From Neptunomonas japonica DSM 18939 (GTDB taxonomy: Bacteria; Pseudomonadota; Gammaproteobacteria; Pseudomonadales; Balneatricaceae), in NCBI RefSeq assembly GCF_000422765.1, contig NZ_KE383915.1:123435-187434 (forward strand): a stretch of 64,000 nucleotides of DNA, read 5' to 3'. Each line of letters starts with the position of its first letter. The stretch's first letter is position 1. Positions 34,796 through 48,573 of this stretch are shown here, piece by piece. The notes under the pieces were generated by a model that worked only from the letters and a program-made list of their open reading frames with translations, made no database searches and was not told the origin of the DNA. A program made the position numbers and the translations under genes.

Positions 34796-35722
34796 TTACG
34801 TACGCTGATCACCATGAAATAGGCGAACAACATGACGCGCTTCAGCGAAGAACAACCAACGCTCAACCAACAAACCCGCGATGACTAACAAAGCAGCAAT
34901 AACGGTTAAAGCACTGCTCGCTGCTAGCAGTAATAGAAATGGCATAACAAAAGCGAGTGCTAACATCAACAAACGTAGACGCACTAACTTATTGGCCTCA
35001 ACGGTATAACCAAACTCATTATTCAAGAAACCATTTGATGTATGACCTTGATCCAGCAAGCGAACGCTTGCTTGTGTAAAACCGGTTGCCGTTTTGATCG
35101 TGCTACCAGCAGGCTTACCAATCCAAAACAGATAAACCACTTTCACCACTGCGCCCAATACCAACAAACCCATTGCCATTTGCAATTGAACAGCCGCTAA
35201 CTCACCAGCCACTAGTGCTTGAACAGCCGCCAGCAGTAAAGAACCTGACATTAAGCCTAGAGCAATATAATTTACAGGTGTTAGTGATGAGTTCCACTGA
35301 CGAATAGTTTTCAAGCTAGCGTAGATCATGCTCGTACAGAACAATGTCACCATCGCAAGCACTGCTGACACCAATCCACACAGCGCTACAAAAGTGCCTA
35401 CTTCAACACCCTGAAACCAAACACCCGCAAGGTAAATCAAGGTAAACGGGTAAAACAATACCGCAAACACTGCTTCACGTGACAACCACGATGTTTTAAA
35501 ACGACTGAACGAGCGCCATGCGTTTTTCGGGTTTGCCAAATGTAATGTAGATGAAAGAAGGCCCACAGTAATCATCACTAGCGCTAACACACCGCCACCG
35601 ATCAGTACGCTATCTTCTTGAGGTGCAAAACCACTCATGTGACCCAGCACCATTAATGTGATCAGACCATAACCGGCACCTGACATCACGGTAAATACTA
35701 GAACTGAAAAAGCCGGATGCAT
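34796..35722 (-). CDS. soeC: DmsC-like membrane anchor of the molybdoenzyme (SoeC-like)
   Basis: I start at the ATG at 35722 (MHPAFSVLVFTVMSGAGYGL), preceded by GGAG at an 8-base spacing; the frame is open 34 codons upstream with hydrophilic, non-family sequence. About eight hydrophobic helices fill the 308 residues, as in DmsC anchors that pass electrons between the Fe-S subunit and the quinone pool. LANPKNAWRSFSRFKTSWLSREAVF is a typical DmsC segment. It is the third subunit gene after A and B, separated from B by a 170-base gap with a strong hairpin. Confidence 0.85.
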   Translation of the reverse strand: MHPAFSVLVFTVMSGAGYGLITLMVLGHMSGFAPQEDSVLIGGGVLALVMITVGLLSSTLHLANPKNAWRSFSRFKTSWLSREAVFAVLFYPFTLIYLAGVWFQGVEVGTFVALCGLVSAVLAMVTLFCTSMIYASLKTIRQWNSSLTPVNYIALGLMSGSLLLAAVQALVAGELAAVQLQMAMGLLVLGAVVKVVYLFWIGKPAGSTIKTATGFTQASVRLLDQGHTSNGFLNNEFGYTVEANKLVRLRLLMLALAFVMPFLLLLAASSALTVIAALLVIAGLLVERWLFFAEARHVVRLFHGDQRT

Positions 35723-35774
35723 ATTACAATCTCCGTTTTTCTCGACCAAAACGCTGGCCGTTTTATTATTATGC

Positions 35775-35800
35775 GCCTGCTCCTTAAACAAGGAGCAGGC
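35775..35800 (-). promoter_or_regulatory. 11-bp perfect stem-loop between soeB and soeC
   Basis: GCCTGCTCCTT (35775-35785) pairs with AAGGAGCAGGC (35790-35800) around AAAC. It lies about 55 bases before soeC and 90 after soeB on the coding strand. No T run follows, so it looks more like an mRNA-stabilising or processing hairpin than a terminator. Confidence 0.5.
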
Positions 35801-35892
35801 TCTATCTATCTCACTATTGCTCAAGCATCACGACTACAAGAAAAACAGACAGCGTTTTACTGCCGTATTTTCAAATGCAGTCGCTTGAACAC

Positions 35893-36582
35893 TTAGCGTG
35901 AAATAACCTTATTAACCCAGCCTTTAACCGTATCTTTCAACGATGCAGGCTGATACTGCTCCACAACCGGTTTATTTCGCGGTGGCAAATAAGTATTTAC
36001 AGGGTTATAACCTAACTCAGGTAGCAGCTGCTTACCGGCACGTTCGCGCACCAATTTGCTGACTTCTGAATTAGGGTCATCAAAGTCACCAAACACACGC
36101 GACTTAGTCGGACAGGTCATTACACACGCAGGTTTACGCTCGTCTTCCGGTAATTTCTCATCGTAAATTCGATCCACACACAAGGTACATTTTTTCATTG
36201 TCCCTTCTTGCGGATCCAATTCACGTGCACCATATGGGCAAGCCCATGAGCATAAGTTACAACCCATGCACTTATCTTGATCGACCAGCACAATGCCATC
36301 TTCAGAACGCTTATATGAAGCGCCCGTTGGGCACACCGTTACACAAGCCGCATCATCACAATGCATACATGACATCGGCATATGCACAGTTTTACTGTTC
36401 GGCGAATCATCCACCTCATAAGTACGAATACGGTTTAACCAAGCACCATTAGGGTTACGACCATAAGGGGCTTTATCCGACAAGGGACCAATGGTGCCCG
36501 ACGTATTCCATTGCTTACAGGCTGTTGCACAGCCATGACAACCAACACAGGAATCCAGATCAACTACCAGACCTAATCTCAT
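35893..36582 (-). CDS. soeB: 4Fe-4S ferredoxin-type electron-transfer subunit (SoeB/DmsB-like)
   Basis: The 229-residue protein has four cysteine clusters for 4Fe-4S centres: CVGCHGCATACKQW, CMHCDDAACVTVCP, CMGCNLCSWACPYG and CTLCVDR...CVMTCP. It relays electrons between the molybdopterin subunit and the membrane anchor. It has no signal peptide, as expected for a complex on the cytoplasmic side. It follows soeA by 21 bases. Confidence 0.92.
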   Translation of the reverse strand: MRLGLVVDLDSCVGCHGCATACKQWNTSGTIGPLSDKAPYGRNPNGAWLNRIRTYEVDDSPNSKTVHMPMSCMHCDDAACVTVCPTGASYKRSEDGIVLVDQDKCMGCNLCSWACPYGARELDPQEGTMKKCTLCVDRIYDEKLPEDERKPACVMTCPTKSRVFGDFDDPNSEVSKLVRERAGKQLLPELGYNPVNTYLPPRNKPVVEQYQPASLKDTVKGWVNKVISR

Positions 36583-36603
36583 CTTATTATTCTCCGTCTG
36601 CAG

Positions 36604-39528
36604 TTACTTCTCACCCCGTGTCAGAATGTCTGACAGCGAGCGCAATATATTGACATTTTTATGGCTGGTATAGCTCAGCATATCCGGAGATGGCTTCGCA
36701 TTTGGCTGTGGTTTCAACGGCCCGAACTGCGGCCAGCTGCCAGTCTCGCCTTCCGCTGCGGGTGTGATTTTTACTCGCAAATCATACCAAGCGGCCTGCC
36801 CTGTAATAGGATCAGAGTTAGTCACACGATCTGTTTCATCGCCTTTTTGCGGAAGTAGCTCTGAAATCAGATGATTCATCAAGAAACCATCCGTCGATTC
36901 GTTTGCATCTTCCGATAAGCCCCAAGCACCACCACGCTTACCGATAGCGTTCCAGGTCCACACCGTTTGCTCGTTAGTACCTTCCATCAGCTTAACTTGC
37001 GCACGAATCTTGCCGTTGTGTGACTCAACCCACACCCATGACATATCTTTAATGCCATCACGCTCTGCCGCTATTCGGTTCATGTACAGATAGTTCTGGT
37101 TCATGATTTGGCGCAACCAAGCATTCTGACTATCCCAGCTGTGGTACATGAACATAGGACGTTGATTCACCGCGTGGTACGGGTACTCATCACGATCAAT
37201 ACGCTGCTCTTCCAACGGCATGTAATAGATAGGAAGTGGGTCAAAGTACTTCACTAAACGCTCTTTGTGGTGCTCTTCAGTTGGCATTGGTCCGTCATAC
37301 AAACCTTGCCCTGCCAAACGAAACGTTTGTAGTTTTTCAGAGTAAAGTTCAATAACGATCTGATCCGTATTACCGATCCAGCCCGCTTCTTTTGCTAGCT
37401 CAAGATAATCGCGGTTTGCATGGCGCATATAACGCTGATTCATCCCTAGCTCAAACTCAAAGAAACCTTCGTTTTCTTCGTATGCTTCCCACTGACGAGG
37501 ATTCGGCTCTCCGCGAAGCGACTTGTCACCGTTCTCACCACGGTAACCAGCCAAGAAACCAATACCTGGTTCTTTCTCGAAGTTAACGATGAAGTCTTTA
37601 TAATCATCGTACTTACGCTCACCTTCTCCTGTTGTAAAAGCAGGGAAACCTAATCGCCCAGCCATTTCAACCATCACTTCCTGCCAAGAAACCACATTAC
37701 GGTCAGGCTTAATCACAGGAATACGAACAGAATCACATGCAGCATGCGGCTCTGAGATTGGACGGTCGAGCATAGAGATTGTGTCGTAACGCTCTAAATA
37801 AGTGGTATCTGGTAATACAAGATCAGAGTACGCCACCATCTCAGAGTTAAATGCATCAGAGCAGACAATAAATGGAATCTTATATTCACCATCATCTTCT
37901 TTGGCGCATAGCATTTCCAACGTTTGCTCAGTATTCATGCTGGAGTTCCACGCCATATTGGCCATGAACAGCATCAATGTATCAATCTTGTACGGGTCAC
38001 CTTTTACCGCGTTGCTAATCACCATATGCATCAAACCATGACACGATATAGGCGCATCCCAGCTATAAGCCTTGTCGATACGTAACGGCTTTCCGTCAGC
38101 ATCAATTGCCAAGTCTTCTGGACATGTAGGAAAGCCTAGTGGTGGTGATTTCAACGGCGTATTTGGCGCCATTTCTTTTGCTGGCTTAATTCCAGGCGGT
38201 ATGTGTTTAGGGAATGGCGGTTTAGCCAGATGGCCACCCGGGCAGTCAATAGTTCCCAGTAGTACTTGCAACATATGAATAGCACGGCACGTTTGAAAGC
38301 CGTTAGAATGTGCAGATATACCTCGCATCGCATGCATAGATACAGGGCGCCCGATAAACTTATCTTGCTTACGGCCAGCCCAGTCAGTCCACTCTACATC
38401 AACAGTAATAGTCTCTTTGAAAGCAACATGCGCCATTTCAAGTGCAATTCGCTCAATATCTTCAGCAGCGACACCACACTCTTTTGCAGCCACTTCAGGA
38501 GAGTACTCATCACCCATATACTTTTCTAGCATGATACTCATTGCTGTGCGCAATGGTGTTCCGTCAGGTGCTGTATATTCGCCAAATAAAGCAGGCGATA
38601 CATCAGGACGGTTCGCATCCGCGTAAGCTTCTGTTAGCTGATCCCACACTTGCGGAGTCTCACCACCCGCACGGTAGAACAAGCCATCGCCTTTCTGTCC
38701 AGGCGTATTAACAACTAGCTGAGCAGAGTTGGTATAACGAATCAAAAACTCTTCATCAACCAACTGATTTTTTAGCAGCACGTGAACCATCGACAACGCA
38801 AGAATGCCATCAGTCCCTGGACGAATAGCTACCCACTCATCAGCAATGGCTTGGTAACCGGTACGAACAGGGTTTACAGATACAAATTTAGCACCACGCT
38901 CTTTAAGTCTTTTTAGACCAAGCTTTATTGGGTTAGAGGCGTGATCTTCTGCCACTCCCCACATAAGGAAGTACTTAGTGTTTTCCCAGTCAGGATCACC
39001 AAACTCCCAGAACGCATGCCCCATCGTATAGAGGCCACCGGCCGCCATATTCACGGAACAAAACCCGCCATGAGCAGCCCAGTTGATGGTGCCAAACTGG
39101 CTAGCCCACATACCGGTGAGAGCCTGCATTTGATCACGGCCAGTAAAATAAGCCAGCTTTTTAGGGTCAGTAGCACGGATGTGCGATAGACGCTTCTCCA
39201 GCATATCTAGCGCTTGTTCCCAAGAAATCTCTTCGAACTCACCCGCACCACGTTCAGTACCCGGTTTACGTAACAAAGGAGAACTTAGTTTGGCAGGTGA
39301 GTACTGCTTCATAATGCCGGAGTTACCCTTAGCACACAGCACACCCTTGTTGACGGGGTGGTTCGGATTGCCTTGTATAAAGCGGACTTTATTATCTTCT
39401 ACCGTTACTTTTATACCGCAACGACAGGCACACATGTAGCAGGTGGTGTATTTGGTTTCCTGCTTATCTCTATTTTCAAATTCTGGAAGACCGGAATTAA
39501 CCGGTATCAAACTGGCTTGGCTTGTCAT
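36604..39528 (-). CDS. soeA: Molybdopterin oxidoreductase catalytic subunit, probable cytoplasmic sulfite dehydrogenase SoeA
   Basis: The 974-residue DMSO-reductase-family enzyme binds an N-terminal 4Fe-4S cluster (Cys30, Cys33, Cys37, Cys65: CYMCACRCG...VLCAKG) and a bis-MGD cofactor. The residue likely to ligate Mo is Cys157 in GGFCSVNMAAGG (inference from position). There is no Tat signal, so it stays in the cytoplasm, unlike DmsA. Size, lack of signal and gene order A-B-C fit SoeABC, which oxidises sulfite to sulfate in Allochromatium and many sulfonate-degrading marine bacteria. Sulfate and sulfite transporter genes 1-6 kb upstream support this. Polysulfide or thiosulfate reductase activity is the main alternative. 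Confidence 0.78.
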   Translation of the reverse strand: MTSQASLIPVNSGLPEFENRDKQETKYTTCYMCACRCGIKVTVEDNKVRFIQGNPNHPVNKGVLCAKGNSGIMKQYSPAKLSSPLLRKPGTERGAGEFEEISWEQALDMLEKRLSHIRATDPKKLAYFTGRDQMQALTGMWASQFGTINWAAHGGFCSVNMAAGGLYTMGHAFWEFGDPDWENTKYFLMWGVAEDHASNPIKLGLKRLKERGAKFVSVNPVRTGYQAIADEWVAIRPGTDGILALSMVHVLLKNQLVDEEFLIRYTNSAQLVVNTPGQKGDGLFYRAGGETPQVWDQLTEAYADANRPDVSPALFGEYTAPDGTPLRTAMSIMLEKYMGDEYSPEVAAKECGVAAEDIERIALEMAHVAFKETITVDVEWTDWAGRKQDKFIGRPVSMHAMRGISAHSNGFQTCRAIHMLQVLLGTIDCPGGHLAKPPFPKHIPPGIKPAKEMAPNTPLKSPPLGFPTCPEDLAIDADGKPLRIDKAYSWDAPISCHGLMHMVISNAVKGDPYKIDTLMLFMANMAWNSSMNTEQTLEMLCAKEDDGEYKIPFIVCSDAFNSEMVAYSDLVLPDTTYLERYDTISMLDRPISEPHAACDSVRIPVIKPDRNVVSWQEVMVEMAGRLGFPAFTTGEGERKYDDYKDFIVNFEKEPGIGFLAGYRGENGDKSLRGEPNPRQWEAYEENEGFFEFELGMNQRYMRHANRDYLELAKEAGWIGNTDQIVIELYSEKLQTFRLAGQGLYDGPMPTEEHHKERLVKYFDPLPIYYMPLEEQRIDRDEYPYHAVNQRPMFMYHSWDSQNAWLRQIMNQNYLYMNRIAAERDGIKDMSWVWVESHNGKIRAQVKLMEGTNEQTVWTWNAIGKRGGAWGLSEDANESTDGFLMNHLISELLPQKGDETDRVTNSDPITGQAAWYDLRVKITPAAEGETGSWPQFGPLKPQPNAKPSPDMLSYTSHKNVNILRSLSDILTRGEK

Positions 39529-39870
39529 ATTTATTATCCACCGTAGCGTTTGGCGTGTAACGCGATGCCCACAAATTCGGATCTGTCATAAAGTTACTGA
39601 GCCCGCCATCCTCTTCATAGAAAGATAGATAAACGAACCCGACTCTGTCAGTTATGCTATGTACTGGATCCAATTCATACAATGACCAGTCCGCAACGAC
39701 AGATAGGGCCAGCAATAAAAACAATAAAAACAATAGGTAACAGACATTAACTGGAATACAAAAAGAGCTTGATTTCAAGTATTTTTCGGACTCGATCAAA
39801 GAAGCTAACAAAGAGAGCATAAAAGCAGCGACCTGCGCCCCACCCTTATAATTAAGATAATCAAACTTAC

Positions 39871-39893
39871 TAGGAGCGGCTTCAACCGCGAAA
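39871..39893. repeat. REP-like palindromic element
   Basis: TAGGAGCGGCTTCAACCGCG followed by AAA matches the core of Pseudomonas REP sequences (GGAGCGG-loop-CCGCGAA), with GCGG/CCGC arms. It lies between the soe operon and the SLC13 gene. No second copy was found in the window. Confidence 0.6.
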
Positions 39894-39947
39894 AAACCGG
39901 CCGCTAATAAACTCTCTTCTACATCATGAGATTAAGAAGGTTCTGCA

Positions 39948-39975
39948 AAAAAGAAAAGGCCGCAAAATGCGGCCA
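39948..39975 (-). terminator. Rho-independent terminator of the SLC13 gene
   Basis: On the minus strand GGCCGCA-TTT-TGCGGCC is followed by TTTTCTTTTTT, about 20 bases after the SLC13 stop. Confidence 0.88.
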
Positions 39976-39996
39976 TACTCAAACTCGAAAAGAACA

Positions 39997-42000
39997 TCAA
40001 AAAACAACATTCATCATTACGATCAACACCACCAAAAACAACAGCGTCATTATGCCGCCCGCCCTGATAAAATCTGCCACTCGATAGCCCCCAGGCCCCA
40101 TAATCAAAGCATTTACCTGATGCGTGGGAATCAGGAATGAATTGGATGTCGCCAGCGCAACCGTCAACGCAAAGACCGCAGGGTCTGCCCCTGCCCCAAT
40201 GGCAATATTCACCGCCAGTGGCACTAGTAGCACCGTGGCCCCAACATTAGACATCACTAAGGTAAAGAACGTCGCCAGCACTGCCACAGCCAACTGCAAT
40301 CCCCAGATCGGAACACCATCAAGTAGACTTAGAGTTTGGTCGGCAATCCAGGCTGCCGTACCGGTACTCTCCACTGCCATTCCCAACGGAATTAGGCTGG
40401 CCAGCAGAAATACAGTTTTCCAGCTAACCGCCTCATAAGCCTCATCAATACTCAAAACACCGGACAACACCATCCCCATGGCTCCGGTCAGCAGAGCGAT
40501 CGATAATTTAATATCAGAGAACAACACCATCGACAGGGCTATGACAAAGAACCCCAGCGCCCAGCCCACTTTATGCGGACGCAACTCCTCTCTCGGGTAA
40601 TTACTGGTCATGACCACAAAATCCCGATTTGGCTCCAGCCGCGCTAGCGCCTCCCAAGTCGTGTGGCACACCAATGTATCCCCAGCCTGAAATTCAATAT
40701 CCCGCACCCCCTGTCCAGCCTGGGATGTATCACCTGCCCGGTGCAGGGCCATCATGGCCAAGCCATAAACGTTACGCAGACGAAGCTCCATCGCCGTATT
40801 GCCAATCAGCGCGGAGCCCGGTGGAATTACTACCTCTGCAATACCAGCCTTGGCCGCAGACAGACTTTCCGAGAAGGTATCCAGATCGGGGCGTTTATTC
40901 ACGCCGTAGTCGGATTCAAACATTTCCAAAGCATCCGACGCTCCCATAACAGCCAGTATAGTGTTGGCCTCGATACCCACATTCCGATCCAGACCTCCAG
41001 GGCCCATGCGCTGAATACCGTTAGCAAACTGAGCCGCGGTAATGCGAACCTTGTAGGGACGCTCTACCTGCTCCAGGGTTTTACCGACCAACGGACTGTC
41101 GCTAGGAACCAGCACCTCAATCAGCTCATAATCCAGCCCGTAGGTTTCACGGAAGTACGCCATAGTACTGAGGGTCTTACCCTCACCTTCGTTAGCTGGT
41201 AACACGAACCGCCCGGCAATAATAAAATACAAGATTCCGGTCAACACCAGGCAAATCCCCACCGGGGTTACGGAAAACAACGACCAGGCAGTCATCTGCT
41301 GATCTGCTGATAACGACTGGTTAGAGGTCAACATCAGGTCATTCAACAAAATCAGCGGGCTGGAGCCAATCATCGTCATGGTCCCCCCCAATATGGCGCA
41401 AAACCCCATCGGCATCAGCAACCGCGACATCGGCAATCCGGTACGGCTGGAGATACGATTCACTACAGGCAGAAACAGCGCAGCGGCACCAACATTCTGC
41501 ATGAAGCAGGAAATAAACCCGACGGTACTTGAAACAATTGGAATGATGCGAGTTTCAGTTTTGCCACCCACCTTCAAAATCCAGTTGGCCACTTGCCCCA
41601 TCAGGCCAGTCTTATCAAGACCCGCACCGATGATCATCACCGCGATAATAGAGATAACCGCGTTACTGGAAAAACCGTTGAACAGATTCGATCCCGACAC
41701 AAGCCCCTGCTCCAGCCCCATCAACGGCGCCAGCAAGGTAGTAAGCCCCAGCAGCACCATGATGGTCGCCGCGGCGACATCGACATCGACAATTTCAAAG
41801 GCAAATAGATAGATAGTCAGCAGTAATACAGCACTCACCCAAGCTATCTCCAAAGTAGGCACTAGCTGGCCGATGAAAACCGCCAAAAACAGGAACAGTC
41901 CTGCGGAAACCATCTGCTTTACAGGTAGCCAAAAAGTGGATTTAGCCTCTATCTGCACCTCAGTATTTTTGTTGTTTTGTGAGGTTGGACTGTTAGACAT
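39997..42000 (-). CDS. SLC13-family permease with TrkA-C domains, probable sulfate/anion transporter
   Basis: I start at the ATG at 42000 (MSNSPTSQ), preceded by GGAG at a 6-base spacing, rather than the GTG at 42012. The 667-residue protein has about 5 N-terminal membrane helices with the ion-transporter motifs MQNVGAAALFLPV and MIGSSPLILLND, a central cytoplasmic part with two TrkA-C-like domains (ELIEVLVPSDSPLVGKTL; EVVIPPGSALIGNTAMEL), and a second membrane half with VMSNVGATVLLVPLAV. Proteins of this build are predicted sodium/sulfate or other anion symporters. The gene is GC-richer than its neighbours and diverges from a LysR gene with a shared 68-bp element between them. Confidence 0.85.
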   Translation of the reverse strand: MSNSPTSQNNKNTEVQIEAKSTFWLPVKQMVSAGLFLFLAVFIGQLVPTLEIAWVSAVLLLTIYLFAFEIVDVDVAAATIMVLLGLTTLLAPLMGLEQGLVSGSNLFNGFSSNAVISIIAVMIIGAGLDKTGLMGQVANWILKVGGKTETRIIPIVSSTVGFISCFMQNVGAAALFLPVVNRISSRTGLPMSRLLMPMGFCAILGGTMTMIGSSPLILLNDLMLTSNQSLSADQQMTAWSLFSVTPVGICLVLTGILYFIIAGRFVLPANEGEGKTLSTMAYFRETYGLDYELIEVLVPSDSPLVGKTLEQVERPYKVRITAAQFANGIQRMGPGGLDRNVGIEANTILAVMGASDALEMFESDYGVNKRPDLDTFSESLSAAKAGIAEVVIPPGSALIGNTAMELRLRNVYGLAMMALHRAGDTSQAGQGVRDIEFQAGDTLVCHTTWEALARLEPNRDFVVMTSNYPREELRPHKVGWALGFFVIALSMVLFSDIKLSIALLTGAMGMVLSGVLSIDEAYEAVSWKTVFLLASLIPLGMAVESTGTAAWIADQTLSLLDGVPIWGLQLAVAVLATFFTLVMSNVGATVLLVPLAVNIAIGAGADPAVFALTVALATSNSFLIPTHQVNALIMGPGGYRVADFIRAGGIMTLLFLVVLIVMMNVVF

Positions 42001-42057
42001 TACTCTCTCCACATTACTGTAGTTCTAGGAGTCTGCCGGACAGACTCCTGAGGAGTT

Positions 42058-42125
42058 AGCAATACTAGAGGCTTTTTGCTATTCTATAAAACGAAATAAA
42101 ATAGCCATCACGAACAGAAAAATCG
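42058..42125 (-). promoter_or_regulatory. 68-bp operator/promoter repeat, copy 1 (upstream of SLC13 gene)
   Basis: This is 84% identical (57 of 68 bases, no gaps) to the reverse complement of 42998-43065. It ends 10 bases before the LysR start and 57 bases before the SLC13 start. The core ATAAAACGAAATAAAAT is identical in both copies. A TTC-N8-GAA dyad of LysR-box type (T-N11-A) lies inside. Confidence 0.8.
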
Positions 42126-42135
42126 AACTACCCAT

Positions 42136-42972
42136 ATGGATACCGTATTACTCAAGACATTTCTCGAGGTTTCCCACACCCGAAATTTCGGCAAAGCCTC
42201 AGACAACCTCTGCGTGGCGCCCTCCACTGTCAGTGCCCGCATTCGCCAGCTCGAAGAGCTACTCGGGTTGACCCTGTTTATCCGTAATCACCAGCAGGTC
42301 AATGTCACCCCGGCGGGCGAGCGGATGGAGCGCCACGCCCGCTTTATCCTCAGTGCCTGGGAACGCGCCTACGAGGATATAGCCCTTAGCGCCAATCTGA
42401 ATAAACGCTTGGTGATAGCCGGCGTTTCCAGCCTGTGGGATATCTTTCTGCAGCAGTGGCTGAACAACATCTATAGCCAGATGCCCACTCTTGGATTACG
42501 TGCCGAAGAGAGTACGCCGCTGCGTGTGGTAGAGAAACTCGACCAGGGCCTGATCGATGTCGGTTTTATGTATGAGCCGCCCAAGCTGGCGGATATGGCT
42601 ATAGAAGAGGTAAAAACGATCACCTTACAATTAGTATCAAGCAGACAAAATCAAACACCGGATGATGCAGTCTCCAAGGGTTACATCCGGGTTGAATGGG
42701 GCACCACGTTTAATACCTTGCATGAAAGTTACTTCCCACAGCGACCACTGGCACCGGTACGCGTAAACAGCGGTCGAGTCGCACTGGATCTGATGCTTAA
42801 CTGCGGCGGAGCCGCCTACCTGCCGCAGGCGGTTGTAGCACCGTTGATCTATCAGGGGAAGCTTTATCCGGTAGCCGATGCGCCACAGATTGAAATGAAA
42901 GCCTATGCAGCCTACTCCCTGCACGGAGAGCACCGCGACCTGATAAAACAACTACTGGTCCTGATGCAATAA
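42136..42972 (+). CDS. LysR-family transcriptional regulator, HdfR-like
   Basis: The 278-residue protein has an N-terminal winged helix (LLKTFLEVSHTRNFGKASDNLCVAPSTVSARIRQLEELLG) close to HdfR of E. coli, followed by a periplasmic-binding-like effector domain. It lies between the SLC13 and sulP genes, and both intergenic regions carry the same 68-bp element, so it probably controls both transporters and, from the position of copy 1, itself. GC content is high (about 68% by count in 42301-42360), unlike the sulP gene next door (38% in 43681-43740). Confidence 0.88.
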   Translation: MDTVLLKTFLEVSHTRNFGKASDNLCVAPSTVSARIRQLEELLGLTLFIRNHQQVNVTPAGERMERHARFILSAWERAYEDIALSANLNKRLVIAGVSSLWDIFLQQWLNNIYSQMPTLGLRAEESTPLRVVEKLDQGLIDVGFMYEPPKLADMAIEEVKTITLQLVSSRQNQTPDDAVSKGYIRVEWGTTFNTLHESYFPQRPLAPVRVNSGRVALDLMLNCGGAAYLPQAVVAPLIYQGKLYPVADAPQIEMKAYAAYSLHGEHRDLIKQLLVLMQ

Positions 42973-42997
42973 ACTGGCGCAACAACCAGCTTCAATT

Positions 42998-43065
42998 CGA
43001 TTATTTTGTTCTTATTGTCCATTTTATTTCGTTTTATCGAATATCAAAAAACCACTAGTATTGCT
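42998..43065 (+). promoter_or_regulatory. 68-bp operator/promoter repeat, copy 2 (upstream of sulP)
   Basis: Inverted copy of 42058-42125. Read toward sulP it has the same orientation as copy 1 read toward the SLC13 gene. It contains a better dyad, TTCG-TTTTAT-CGAA (about 43028-43041), and ends 125 bases before the sulP ATG. Confidence 0.8.
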
Positions 43066-43190
43066 GTTCTTGAGTATTTCCAAATTGGTCACAACAGGCA
43101 CACCAACTGGCTCTATATTATAATATGCCCAATCAATACACTACATTGTTGAAATAAAAGCAAAATTATCGGTACGTAGGACTTCAATCT

Positions 43191-44948
43191 ATGCAAAATA
43201 AGACAGGCAACTCTCAATTTAACTGGACCCGCCTGCTGCCGTTCCTCGTCTGGTTTAAGCTCATCACTCCAGCCAAGGCGCGTGATGACCTTTTTGCTGG
43301 TATCACCAATGCCGTCATCGTATTACCTCAAGGTGTAGCTTACGCTCTGATTGCCGGTATGCCTCCTGAATACGGCTTATACGCGGCAATTATCCCCGCA
43401 ATCATTGCCGCCCTGTTTGGCTCTTCATGGCACCTCATTTCTGGTCCAACCGCTGCTTTATCAATTGTTGTTTTCACCACAGTAAGCCCACTGGCGTCTC
43501 CTGGCTCCCCAGAATTCATCAACCTTGTACTCGCATTAACACTCATGGCGGGATTATTTCAGTTGCTTTTGGCATTCTTCCGCTTTGGCACCTTAGTTAA
43601 TTTTGTTTCCCACTCCGTTGTTGTCGGCTTCACAACAGGGGCTGCTATTGTTATTGCATCCAGCCAGGTTAAGAATATTTTAGGTATTTCTATTGAAAGC
43701 AATGGATCCTTCCTATCTACATGGTCTGGCGTATTTTCAGCAGCAAACAACACCAATTTTTATGCACTTTCTGTTGCTGCTGTCACCGTTGTCACATGCC
43801 TATTCTTTAAGCGCGTACTGCCCCGCTGGCCAAACATGCTTATTGCCATGATCATCAGCAGTGTCTTTGCATGGTGGCTCGGCGCAGACGAGAACAGCAT
43901 CGCATTAGTCGGTGAGATTCCAGGAAGTTTACCGCCCTTTATGTTCCCCAGCGTTGATTCCAACGTGTTTTACGACTTAGCGCCTGGTGCTATTGCTATC
44001 GGTTTATTAGGCTTAGTCGAAGCGGTTTCCATAGCTCGCTCTGTAGCAACACGCTCACACCAATCCATTAACGGCAATCAAGAGTTTTATGGACAGGCAC
44101 TGTCAAACATTGTTGGTTCTGTATTCTCTTCTTACGCCTCTTCTGGCTCCTTTACTCGCACGGGTGTCAACTTCACATCCGGTGCTAAAACGCCATTAGC
44201 AGCTGTTATCGCAGCCATTTCACTGGCGATCATTGTGTTGCTATTTTCTGAAATGACACGCTTTATTCCCATTCCAAGCATGGCAGGCTTACTGCTGGTT
44301 GTTGCTTATAACCTTATTGATTTTCATCACATCAAATTGATCTTTCGCGCAGGAAAATCTGAATTTGCTGTATTAATTGTCACCTTCGCTGCAACCCTTG
44401 TCATGGCGCTTGAGTTTGCTATCTACTTGGGTGTTATTTTGTCACTGGTATTTTATCTAAAGCGTACGTCCCAGCCAAATATTGTAGAAGTGCTGCCCGA
44501 CCAACACAGCACCACTCCATTTTTCATCAGCGCCCTTGGCTCTAGCGAACCTCGCTGCCCGCAGCTAAAAATTATTCGTATTGAAGGCTCTTTATTTTTC
44601 GGCTCAGTTAACTACGTAAAAGACTATCTAGAAAACATAAGCTCACCAAACGTACTCATTATTGGTCACGGTATGAACCATATCGATATCGCTGGGGCCG
44701 AAATGTTGATGCAAGAAGCCAAACGCAGACGCAGCATCGGACAAGCACTATTTCTGAGCAACCTTAAAACACAAGTTGATGAGTACCTACGACGAGATGA
44801 GTACTTTGAAAGCTTAGGTGAGCAGTCATTTTTTCCGTCAAAAGGGGAAGCCATTCAAAAAATATACGAGCATCTCGATCGTGACATCTGTCATAATTGC
44901 ACCAGCCGTATTTTTCAAGAATGCAAAACCATCATCCCTAAAGAGTAA
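43191..44948 (+). CDS. SulP-family inorganic anion transporter with STAS domain
   Basis: The 585-residue protein has the SulP start (DDLFAGITNAVIVLPQGVAYALIAGMPPEYGLYAAIIPAIIAALFGSS region), about 12 membrane helices, and a C-terminal STAS domain (PQLKIIRIEGSLFFGSVNYV; MNHIDIAGAEML). SulP proteins move sulfate, bicarbonate or other anions. The final 20 residues hold three cysteines (ICHNC...QEC), unusual for the family and possibly metal- or redox-binding. tauE follows after 12 bases, so the two are cotranscribed. Confidence 0.92.
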   Translation: MQNKTGNSQFNWTRLLPFLVWFKLITPAKARDDLFAGITNAVIVLPQGVAYALIAGMPPEYGLYAAIIPAIIAALFGSSWHLISGPTAALSIVVFTTVSPLASPGSPEFINLVLALTLMAGLFQLLLAFFRFGTLVNFVSHSVVVGFTTGAAIVIASSQVKNILGISIESNGSFLSTWSGVFSAANNTNFYALSVAAVTVVTCLFFKRVLPRWPNMLIAMIISSVFAWWLGADENSIALVGEIPGSLPPFMFPSVDSNVFYDLAPGAIAIGLLGLVEAVSIARSVATRSHQSINGNQEFYGQALSNIVGSVFSSYASSGSFTRTGVNFTSGAKTPLAAVIAAISLAIIVLLFSEMTRFIPIPSMAGLLLVVAYNLIDFHHIKLIFRAGKSEFAVLIVTFAATLVMALEFAIYLGVILSLVFYLKRTSQPNIVEVLPDQHSTTPFFISALGSSEPRCPQLKIIRIEGSLFFGSVNYVKDYLENISSPNVLIIGHGMNHIDIAGAEMLMQEAKRRRSIGQALFLSNLKTQVDEYLRRDEYFESLGEQSFFPSKGEAIQKIYEHLDRDICHNCTSRIFQECKTIIPKE

Positions 44949-44960
44949 AATTTACACATC

Positions 44961-45707
44961 ATGGGCTTAGAAACACTTATTCCCTTTATCGCTATCATTG
45001 CCTTTGCAACCTATGTACAAACCATCACAGGGTTTGCTCTAGGCATGATAGTGATGGGCGCCGTTACTGCATTTAACCTAGTACCCATTGCATTCACTTC
45101 TGTTGTCATTAGCGCGGTCACCTTGATCAACGGCCTTATTGCCATCAAAGGTAATTTCCATGCGCTTGATATTAAGCGGGTCATGATTACTTGTGCAGGT
45201 ATTTTCCCTGCATTGCTCGCCGGCCTACTCCTACTAGATTACCTTAGCGAGTCATTTAATAGCCTATTACAGCTATTATTGGGCATCACTATTTTTACGG
45301 GCGGCATGTTAATTATGCTTCGTCCAGACCCCTTAAAAGAACCTTCACCCAATGCTGTGTTTGCAGCATCAGGTGCAACCGCAGGCTTTTTAGCGGGAAT
45401 GTTTAGCATGGCCGGGCCGCCTCTTGTTTATCTGTTTTACCGTCAACCCTTTGAGCTAAAAACGATAAGGTTATGTTTAGTTTCTATATTCCTTGTTTGC
45501 TCAACAGCCCGCATTATTATGGTTGGCTTCCAAGGCGGCTTAACACTGGATATGCTGACATTTTCACTTTTGTGTATTCCTATGGTGATGTTCTTTACGT
45601 GGGTCGGCAAACGCTATCCACCACCACTGAGCACCACTAATATGCGCCGTTTTGCATTTTCATTGTTGATCATCATTGGCATTAGCCTAATGGTAGGCGC
45701 ACTATAA
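44961..45707 (+). CDS. TauE/SafE-family sulfite/anion exporter
   Basis: This 248-residue membrane protein has seven to eight hydrophobic helices and the duplicated TauE motifs (YVQTITGFALGMIVMG near the start; GATAGFLAGMFSMAGPPLVYLFY in the second half). TauE/SafE proteins are proposed to export sulfite or sulfoacetate in taurine degraders. Its tight link to sulP and closeness to soeABC favour a sulfur-anion substrate. Confidence 0.88.
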   Translation: MGLETLIPFIAIIAFATYVQTITGFALGMIVMGAVTAFNLVPIAFTSVVISAVTLINGLIAIKGNFHALDIKRVMITCAGIFPALLAGLLLLDYLSESFNSLLQLLLGITIFTGGMLIMLRPDPLKEPSPNAVFAASGATAGFLAGMFSMAGPPLVYLFYRQPFELKTIRLCLVSIFLVCSTARIIMVGFQGGLTLDMLTFSLLCIPMVMFFTWVGKRYPPPLSTTNMRRFAFSLLIIIGISLMVGAL

Positions 45708-45824: not shown

Positions 45825-46823
45825 ATGTCTGATATTAAAATTGACCAGCCGGATACGACGGTCTCTGTTCGCGAGGTTTTTGGCATAGATACAGACCTTA
45901 GAGTCCCTGCGTTTAGTGAGCGGGATGATCATGTACCAGAAATAGATACCGCGTATCAGTTTAACCCTGAAGTTACCTTAGCCATCTTGGCAGGATTTAG
46001 TCGTGATCGCCGGGTGATGGTTCAAGGCTTACACGGCACAGGCAAATCAACTCATATAGAGCAAGTCGCTGCCCGACTAAACTGGCCATGTGTACGTATC
46101 AACCTTGATGGCCATATCAGCCGTCTTGATTTAGTGGGTAAAGACACCATCATTTTACGCGATGGCAAGCAAGTAACCGAGTTTCAGGAAGGTATCGTAC
46201 CTTGGGCATTACGTCGTCCAACGGCATTGATTTTTGATGAGTTCGACGCAGGCCGCCCTGACGTTATGTTTGTTATCCAACGCATATTAGAGCGTGACGG
46301 TAAGTTCACACTACTTGATCAGAACGAAGTGATTCATCCGCATAAGCAGTTCCGTCTATTTGCTACATCCAACACGATTGGCTTAGGTAATAGTACTGGC
46401 TTGTATCATGGTACACAGATGATTAACCAAGCTCAGATGGATCGCTGGAATATCGTCACTACACTTAACTACTTACCGACCGACGACGAAGTTAAAATTA
46501 TACAAGCCCGTGTACCTAACTTTGATAATGACGCCGGCCTAACGTTAGTAAAGTCGATGATTGCTGTTGCAGACATGACACGTAACAGTTTTGCTGCCGG
46601 TGATATTTCTACGCTAATGTCTCCACGTACGGTTATTTCGTGGGCAGAAAATATAGAGATCTTCCGTGATCCTGCCATTGCCTTTCGTCTGTCATTCTTA
46701 AACAAGTGTGATGAAGCTGAACGGCCAATGATCGCTGAATTTTTCCAACGCTGTTTCGACCAAGAGTTAACTGAATCTTGGGCTCATAAGGCGTCTGGAG
46801 TAATGACCAGTGAGCAACACTAA
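45825..46823 (+). CDS. cobS: CobS-like AAA+ ATPase
   Basis: The 332-residue AAA+ protein has Walker A GLHGTGKST at about 68-76, Walker B LIFDEFDAG at about 135, a sensor segment ATSNTIG and an Arg in MDRW. The sequence is close to CobS of the aerobic cobaltochelatase CobNST. AGGT precedes the ATG at a 6-base spacing. It overlaps cobT by 14 bases. No CobN or other cobalamin gene is in the window, so it may be a MoxR-like metalloenzyme-activating ATPase rather than a B12 enzyme subunit. Confidence 0.85.
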   Translation: MSDIKIDQPDTTVSVREVFGIDTDLRVPAFSERDDHVPEIDTAYQFNPEVTLAILAGFSRDRRVMVQGLHGTGKSTHIEQVAARLNWPCVRINLDGHISRLDLVGKDTIILRDGKQVTEFQEGIVPWALRRPTALIFDEFDAGRPDVMFVIQRILERDGKFTLLDQNEVIHPHKQFRLFATSNTIGLGNSTGLYHGTQMINQAQMDRWNIVTTLNYLPTDDEVKIIQARVPNFDNDAGLTLVKSMIAVADMTRNSFAAGDISTLMSPRTVISWAENIEIFRDPAIAFRLSFLNKCDEAERPMIAEFFQRCFDQELTESWAHKASGVMTSEQH

Positions 46824-48573
46824 TAGCGGTTACGAAGCAAAACAAACTGCGCAGCAACCACGCCATGAAAAACTTCAGCAGATGGTTGAAGAGTTATGCG
46901 GTGTTAGTGTGCGTGGGTACTCTGGCGTCAGTGGTTTTAAATTTAGAGGCCACCGCCCAGAGCTAAATGGCCGCCCCTCAGGCATTCGCGCGTCACATCT
47001 ACGTACTAGTTTAGAAAAAGACGACTTTCGATCTTTTCGCGGTGCCGCCGATGGTATCGCTCTGCGCTTAAAGCATTGTGATATTGATCTTCATCGCAGC
47101 CTTATGCCCGAAAGTGATGTGGGACAAATGATCTTTGAGCTACTGGAGCAGTTACGTGTAGAAACACTAGTTGACTCAGCTCACCCCGGTGCTAAGCGTA
47201 ATATCGAACATCGTTTCGAGTCATGGTGCCTGCAGTTACACGCAGCCAATATGACTGAAAACAATGTGGGCCTAATGATCTACACGGTTGCCCAGATGGT
47301 CTGGACGCGCCTCTCAGGCAATCCCGTTATAGAAGTAACAGAGGATCTTATCGAACCGCACCGCATGATGCTTGCTCCTCATGTCGGTACTTATCTAGTT
47401 GGTATGCGCCGCAATGTTCACGATCAAAAAGTATTCGCTGAAAATGCCTTAGGCGTAGCTCAGGTGGTAGATGAGCTAGTTGGTTTTTTGGATGAGAATG
47501 AAAAAGACAGCGAAGAGGAAGACGAAGCCGTTAATAACAGCTTTGGCCTACTGCTAGAAACAGAAAGTGAATCAGAAGGCGAAATGCCCACCAGCAATGG
47601 ACGCACAACACATTCACAATACCGCGAACTATTGGCTCAACTAAACAGCTATAAAGTATGGTCTCGCGATAATGACCGGATTATACATGCTGAAAAACTT
47701 GTCGCATCCTTTATCAGAACAAAAATGCGCACCCAACTTGATGAACGTATTCGCGGCCAAGGGGTTAACGTCCCACGCCTGGCGCGACAGTTACAGATGA
47801 TCTTATCGGCACCCGAATTAGATGGTTGGAACTTTGGTGAAGAAGAGGGTTATTTAGATGCTCGGCGCTTAACACGTTTGGTGACTTCTCCTGAGTACCG
47901 CCAGCTATTTCGTAAAGAGCGTTACCAACCGCATAGCAATTGTTTGGTGACCTTCTTACTGGATAACTCAGGCTCCATGAAACAGCATATCGGCTCTATC
48001 GCAATGCTGATAGAGATCATGGCTAAAGCGCTTGAACTTGCCGGTGCCAGCACTGAAATTCTAGGCTTTACCACACGCAGTATTCAAGGCGGAAAAACCT
48101 TTAAGCGCTGGCGCTCATCAGCCAACAAAGAAGCAAGTCCAGGCCGCTTGGCGGAGACAGAGCACATTATCTATAAAGACGCCGATACACCATTTAAACG
48201 TGCGCGACAGAATATAGCCGCCATGATGAAGCCAGATATCTTTAAAGAAGGTGTTGATGGTGAAGCTCTGCTTTGGGCCGCCGAACGGATGACTGCACGC
48301 CCAGAAGAACGCCGCATTCTCATTGTACTATCAGATGGCTCTCCAATGGAGTCAGCTACCGCGCAAAATAACGTGCCAGACTTTATGGATAACCACTTAC
48401 GCCAAGTAGCTACTATGCTAGAAGCGCGTGGTGATATGGAACTATATGCACTTGGTTTTGGACTAGACCTAAGCACCTACTATCGCAACAGTCTGGAGCT
48501 AGATCTGCCAGAAGTTTTAGAGAACTCGGTGTTTAAAGACATTATCAAGATGCTGGAACGTCGCCACCGTTAA
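46810..48573 (+). CDS. cobT: CobT-like VWA protein, partner of CobS
   Basis: The GTG start at 46810 has GGAG 9 bases upstream inside cobS. The 587-residue protein has an N-terminal CobT-specific helical region, an acidic linker (about 230-260, Glu/Asp/Ser-rich), and a C-terminal von Willebrand A domain with the MIDAS motif DNSGSM at about 385-390 and LSDGSPMES. CobT pairs with CobS as the AAA+/VWA motor that inserts cobalt together with CobN. With CobN absent here, the pair may serve another metal centre; NorQ/NorD and CbbQ/CbbO are precedents for such AAA+/VWA pairs. Confidence 0.85.
   Translation: MSNTNSGYEAKQTAQQPRHEKLQQMVEELCGVSVRGYSGVSGFKFRGHRPELNGRPSGIRASHLRTSLEKDDFRSFRGAADGIALRLKHCDIDLHRSLMPESDVGQMIFELLEQLRVETLVDSAHPGAKRNIEHRFESWCLQLHAANMTENNVGLMIYTVAQMVWTRLSGNPVIEVTEDLIEPHRMMLAPHVGTYLVGMRRNVHDQKVFAENALGVAQVVDELVGFLDENEKDSEEEDEAVNNSFGLLLETESESEGEMPTSNGRTTHSQYRELLAQLNSYKVWSRDNDRIIHAEKLVASFIRTKMRTQLDERIRGQGVNVPRLARQLQMILSAPELDGWNFGEEEGYLDARRLTRLVTSPEYRQLFRKERYQPHSNCLVTFLLDNSGSMKQHIGSIAMLIEIMAKALELAGASTEILGFTTRSIQGGKTFKRWRSSANKEASPGRLAETEHIIYKDADTPFKRARQNIAAMMKPDIFKEGVDGEALLWAAERMTARPEERRILIVLSDGSPMESATAQNNVPDFMDNHLRQVATMLEARGDMELYALGFGLDLSTYYRNSLELDLPEVLENSVFKDIIKMLERRHR

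Follow-up and report, generated by a model that had tools for sequence, protein, structure and literature searches.

A conserved, probable LysR promoter-operator and its inverted second copy beside two anion-transporter genes of Neptunomonas japonica

The window analysed here, that is, the whole stretch of 64,000 nucleotides from Neptunomonas japonica DSM 18939, carries a gene for a LysR-type regulator standing between two transporter genes, together with the features collected in Table 1. Both domains of the LysR family scored over their cut-offs in this protein, PF00126 in the N-terminal part (1.8e-17) and PF03466 in the C-terminal part (2.9e-16). Against the HdfR equivalog model NF002946 it reached 172.6 bits, below the cut-off of 240, and it is therefore not an equivalog of HdfR. 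SulP and TauE probably form one operon. The molybdo-oxidoreductase genes beyond DASS are those which we take to be SoeABC. The CobS/CobT-like pair is linked to the SoeA and SulP genes in three genera (the window and genomes G007, G009, G001 and G028). A CobN match is present in the window genome, G001 and G028 and absent from G007 and G009, which also have the CobS/CobT-like pair, so in these last two its role may be a different one from cobalt chelation.

Table 1. Genes, repeat copies and predicted promoter features of the locus, in window positions.
Feature	Position	Strand	Basis
SoeC-B-A-like molybdo-oxidoreductase genes, beyond DASS	34796..39528	-	A and B: domain/family matches; C: by eye from the ORF
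Segment missing at the corresponding site in G007 (approximate limits); contains DASS, LysR and both copies	39714..43144	.	blastn
DASS/SLC13-like transporter, TrkA-C domains present; divergent from LysR; may start instead at an internal ATG (42000)	39997..42012	-	CitMHS, TrkA_C, Na_sulph_symp; TIGR00785 below cut-off
Copy 1, predicted promoter-operator unit, -72 to -3 from the assumed DASS start; also LysR upstream region	42058..42127	-	Repeat; R1 match 39.2 bits, E 2.6e-9 per genome; same placement in 16/16 named loci
Predicted -10 box TAGTAT, DASS promoter; predicted start near 42055	42062..42067	-	TANNNT register in relatives; inference
Conserved block of copy 1, predicted operator, -72 to -26	42081..42127	-	Column profile of relatives
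LysR-type regulator, 278 aa, HdfR-like	42136..42972	+	Pfam HTH_1 and LysR_substrate; NCBIfam
Copy 2, inverted repeat of the copy 1 unit, downstream of LysR and upstream of SulP	42996..43065	+	Repeat; R1 match 28.0 bits, E 8.3e-6 per genome
Conserved block of copy 2, predicted operator, -72 to -26	42996..43042	+	Column profile of relatives
Predicted -10 box TAGTAT, SulP promoter; predicted start near 43068	43056..43061	+	Register as in relatives; inference
Permease of the SulP family, STAS domain present; follows copy 2	43191..44948	+	Pfam; TIGR00815 374 bits, just under the 380 cut-off
TauE/SafE-type exporter, 12 nt after SulP	44961..45707	+	Pfam TauE; ORF coordinates
CobS/CobT-like AAA-VWA pair, beyond TauE	45825-48573		Family matches

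The predicted leader of the DASS gene contains a perfect 9-bp hairpin (AGGAGTCTG...CAGACTCCT, 42027-42049) located at the predicted start, and a second dyad, ACTCCT/AGGAGT (42044-42056), overlaps it. The leader folds with -22 kcal/mol (z -2.15), and with up to two mismatches allowed the genome contains no other instance of the hairpin pattern.

Regarding the inverted repeat itself, a repeat search of the window aligned 42058-42127 with the reverse complement of 42996-43065 over 70 nt at 84% identity. The gapless match of 57 of 68 bases put forward in the original prediction, between 42058-42125 and the reverse complement of 42998-43065, was reproduced, as was its 17-base core, ATAAAACGAAATAAAAT, which the window has once per strand (42086 on the plus strand and 43021 on the minus strand) and is the longest run common to both arms. 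Furthermore, each copy does have the same orientation toward its transporter gene, copy 1 toward DASS on the minus strand and copy 2 toward SulP on the plus strand, where some 125 nt separate its end from the SulP start. Apart from each other, neither copy finds a better gapless 68-nt match within the window than 35 of 68. In the whole genome of 4.39 Mb the second copy is found with E = 1.1e-15 and the next match with E = 0.51, so this is the only such pair, and the similarity is due neither to chance nor to a family of repeats scattered in the genome, the explanation that the original prediction had named as its possible undoing.

The alignment of the intergenic regions of related genomes, which had been proposed as a check, showed that the element is conserved. 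In all 16 named loci of the LysR ortholog the regulator is divergent from a transporter gene (SulP in 10, DASS in 6) and the element lies between both genes, with its anchor at a distance of 43-91 nt from the LysR start. No second transporter of the DASS or SulP type was found in the fetched flanks of these 16 loci, some of which were short, and the genes flanking the module showed no common function among 10 proteins from 6 loci. In the LysR tree the row nearest to the window is that of Neptunomonas qingdaonensis (L039), although the place of the window in this tree is not settled. The locus L050 (genome G079) shows a shortened LysR with one in-frame TGA and an element with losses in A runs; these defects are likelier to be homopolymer errors of long reads than decay, since G079 is one contig at 78% completeness.

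A sequence-only profile of the elements of 16 relatives, built with the window left out and called R1, finds both copies of the window, copy 1 with 39.2 bits and copy 2 with 28.0 bits. We then searched 116 genomes of the family, accepting an element at E of at most 5e-4 and a LysR ortholog at E of at most 1e-80, and found the element in 24 genomes and the ortholog in 23. All 23 genomes with the ortholog have the element, against only 1 of the 93 genomes without it. When the 15 training genomes were left out, the figures were 8 of 8 against 1 of 93 (Fisher p 4e-11, which is only a guide because the genomes are related). The single element-positive genome that lacks the ortholog is G021, where the element adjoins a different LysR gene whose divergent neighbour looks, by eye, like an MFS gene. 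Upstream of this different LysR with its MFS-like neighbour there is a weak element-like stretch in G021 and G001 (22.2 bits at L155 1400-1650 and 18.3 bits at L134 2071-2119), which may be a site of a related kind for LysR.

In the other 22 genomes with the LysR ortholog the regulator is always divergent from its partner, which is a DASS protein in 8 cases and a SulP protein in 14, so the control of both families has a precedent. Two elements were found in the window genome only and one in each of the other 22; in this search the filters were strict and 48 first-look candidates were scored in each genome, and weak second copies could be missed by it. A search with R1 for a wider regulon in 20 genomes, where 150 first-look candidates per genome were scored and weak sites could likewise be missed, gave E values below 0.006 only for the LysR-linked sites and copy 2. 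Three of the following matches were inspected, G058:C19 (E 0.0063), G001:C1:860070 (E 0.0082) and G000:C1:176357 (E 0.018), two of them being within long ORFs and one overlapping the start of another LysR gene. Upstream of the sulP orthologs in five fetched loci (L105-L109) the element was absent in all five.

In order to describe the element we used 18 gapless rows in the orientation of the transporter, namely the two copies of the window and 16 relatives, of which 11 are SulP-partnered (including G009) and 5 DASS-partnered; L050 was left out. Positions are numbered on the assumption that a TANNNT motif is the -10 box, from which the start position follows. Among the 16 relatives the mean information is 1.32 bits at -72 to -26, 0.61 at -25 to -13, 1.24 at -12 to -7 and 0.29 from -6 on, and the invariant block within the element is TTTCGTTT. 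The rows were anchored on AAACGA and therefore the columns at this core are partly conserved by construction. Nevertheless, the -10 box lies at least 22 columns from the anchor and so outside this effect, and here TANNNT is invariant in 18 of 18 rows, as well as at the same spacing in 6 of 6 further genomes, some of them close relatives of the rows used. The arms of the repeat span -72 to -3, which means that the duplicated unit comprises the operator and the -10 box.

Both copies agree with the consensus of the relatives equally well, each at 50 of the 70 columns from -72 to -3. In this stretch 14 columns never vary in the 16 relatives, and 12 of them are intact in both copies; copy 2 has lost only the one at -30 and copy 1 only the one at -62. 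The residues found in none of the 16 relatives are T at -53 and C at -30 in copy 2, and C at -62 in copy 1. At the 11 positions where the copies differ there is no significant preference for variable columns (permutation p = 0.15), and constraint on copy 2 since the duplication is therefore not proven. A search of 41950-43250 gave no canonical sigma-70 promoter, where shuffling would lead one to expect 2.1; this is compatible with an activator-dependent promoter and gives no support for one.

The dyad TTCG-N6-CGAA, thought to fit a LysR box, actually exists in copy 2 (43028-43041). However, copy 1 reads TTCG-N6-AGAA, and the C that completes the dyad, at column -30, is A in all 16 relatives, so the substitution is private to copy 2 and the dyad is not a conserved LysR box. 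By eye there is no single T-N11-A dyad common to all 18 rows and such dyads are weak in the copies of the window, whereas one similar to TTGGC-N7-GCCAA is clear in the Amphritea and Marinomonas rows (L047, L048 and L053).

Taking the sequence comparisons together, we consider it likely that the element is the promoter-operator of a two-gene module, formed by LysR and a divergent anion transporter, that it is present twice at this locus, and that LysR activates DASS through copy 1 and SulP-TauE through copy 2. At copy 1, LysR, which should be a tetramer, would occupy about 47 bp of the DASS promoter (-72 to -26), a stretch that would overlap the promoter of lysR itself; the protein would thereby activate DASS and presumably hold down its own gene. 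Copy 2 would be an inverted duplicate of the whole unit in front of SulP-TauE, the duplication having presumably run in this direction. Since copy 2 repeats the whole unit of operator and -10 box, SulP-TauE would be switched on by the same protein and the same signal. Probably, then, a single LysR switches on two unrelated sulfur-anion transporters. The original prediction had proposed control of both transporters through one duplicated operator; the conservation of the element with its LysR agrees with this, and what should be amended is the unit, which is not the operator alone.

There are other ways to explain a second copy. The one that we take most seriously, though we regard it as unlikely, is that copy 2 is a fossil, left over when a rearrangement placed LysR-DASS beside SulP; LysR would bind this copy weakly or not at all, while SulP-TauE kept its own promoter. 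The lower profile score of copy 2, its two residues seen in no relative and the failure of the differences between the copies to avoid the conserved columns significantly all point in this direction, as do the distance between the end of copy 2 and the SulP start and some similarity to the upstream region of the relatives from 43145 on. Nevertheless, operator and -10 box stand in exact register in copy 2, nearly all the never-varying columns are intact in it, with one loss in each copy, and it is as consensus-like as copy 1. This same register also bears on a reading that we hold to be very improbable, namely that copy 2 acts mainly on LysR itself, either as a LysR-side promoter giving an antisense RNA into the 3' end of lysR or as an operator that titrates or loops LysR. 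The core, which could hold a LysR-side -10 box (TAAAAT), is identical in both copies as this reading would have it, but neither antisense RNA nor titration would need the SulP-side -10 box and its register, and both are kept.

The layout of inverted arms around the LysR gene had also suggested that recombination between them could flip this gene and so change which copy drives it. We give this hardly any credence, because the arms are only 84% identical, with no common run longer than the 17-base core, and the reversed form was not seen: in each of the 22 relatives LysR and its partner are divergent, and the search of 48 first-look candidates per genome found one element. Least of all can the likeness of the two copies be put down to chance in AT-rich intergenic DNA or to a repeat family dispersed in the genome; their G+C content of 26-32% would make the former conceivable, but the pair is unique in the genome and the element is tied to the LysR gene across the 116 genomes, which refutes both.

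Regarding the history of the locus, the preferred reading, in which copy 2 is a working duplicate, can be set beside a genome of the same genus, G007, where SoeABC faces SulP-TauE-CobS-CobT across 378 bp between the SoeA and SulP starts, against an interval of 3.66 kb in the window. The blastn matches of G007 on either side of the insert are at window 39401-39713 (89.8%) and 43145-43300 (66%). In G009, from another genus, SoeA likewise faces SulP directly. The same interval carries other multi-kilobase inserts in G001 and G028 (L105 10319-16909 and L108 10843-17544), and it may be a favoured insertion place. The SulP protein of the window is 87-95% identical to its orthologs in three congeners, and has 48-52% identity to the SulP proteins that partner this LysR. 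In a further member of the genus, G004, the partner of LysR is SulP instead of DASS. The two copies of the window are each other's closest match (57 of 68), followed by the DASS-type element of L042 (51 and 50), and this favours a duplication inside the module. We also considered whether copy 2 came from a separate LysR-SulP module, an origin not favoured by the mutual closeness of the copies nor by the low identity of the window SulP to the SulP partners of LysR. In G014 (L110 124-3221) a DASS gene 77-78% identical to that of the window adjoins TauE, in the usual place of SulP, and this genome has no LysR match better than E 2.2e-14.

The signal is most likely sulfite or sulfate, which is a guess from the neighbouring genes and from the analogy with YeiE and YeiH discussed below. 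SoeA is carried by all 9 genomes with a DASS-partnered LysR, by 6 of the 14 with a SulP-partnered LysR and by 39 of the 116 overall. This hints weakly that the DASS version goes with sulfite oxidation, the association being weak because the nine genomes belong to three genera. A broader idea, possible although we would not bet on it, is that this LysR clade carries a portable cassette of regulator and operator, a self-contained promoter unit usable before either of two unrelated transporter folds, DASS or SulP. Here it would have arrived next to a sulfite-oxidation locus already in place and brought SulP-TauE under its control through an outward copy of its promoter. A regulator with one target would in this way have become a switch of two exporters.

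The conserved element, probably a LysR promoter-operator, is real, and its inverted second copy is unusual, the two-copy arrangement being known from one genome only. The parts are ordinary; the second copy looks like the capture of a neighbouring gene into the regulon, and next to G007, which lacks the insert, one can read the locus as the states before and after a regulon grew by duplication of a promoter-operator. DASS and SulP are exchanged under one operator, suggesting that they do the same job there. Furthermore, the HdfR-like LysR clade tied to sulfur-anion transporters in marine gammaproteobacteria now has a defined predicted operator and a testable regulon of two promoters; we found no study of this LysR-transporter module in the literature searched.

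Among the known systems, HdfR (PRK03601) is the best NCBIfam match of the window LysR among the matches listed, and covers it over nearly its full length (residues 1-274). However, the targets of HdfR are flhDC and gltBD, and the divergent transporter partners of the window LysR are unlike them. The model of another regulator, YeiE, is absent among the 25 of 51 NCBIfam matches listed for the window LysR, and its partner YeiH is not known to be a DASS or a SulP protein. In Salmonella, YeiE is described as a LysR-type autoregulator divergent from the inner-membrane protein YeiH that responds to sulfite, and some YeiH orthologs are annotated as putative sulfate exporters (PMC12880088). Both there and in the window a LysR-type regulator is divergent from a membrane protein, a likeness of description, whereas the parts of that account available to us make no mention of a second, downstream copy of the site (PMC12880088).

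The closest parallel in layout is the classical divergent promoter of LysR-type regulators, where the regulator is divergent from its target with a conserved element between them, as in the window. As described, this layout takes 50-60 bp, with a recognition site near -65 and an activation site at -35/-10 (PMC8407307). The element matches this, with a block of about 47 bp from -72 to -26 that reaches the -35 region and a -10 box in fixed register, within the numbering assumed here. As in the classical case, it would be close to the regulator's own promoter or overlap it. The difference is that in the window a second, inverted copy of the whole unit stands past the 3' end of the regulator, and in this way a second operon would be added.
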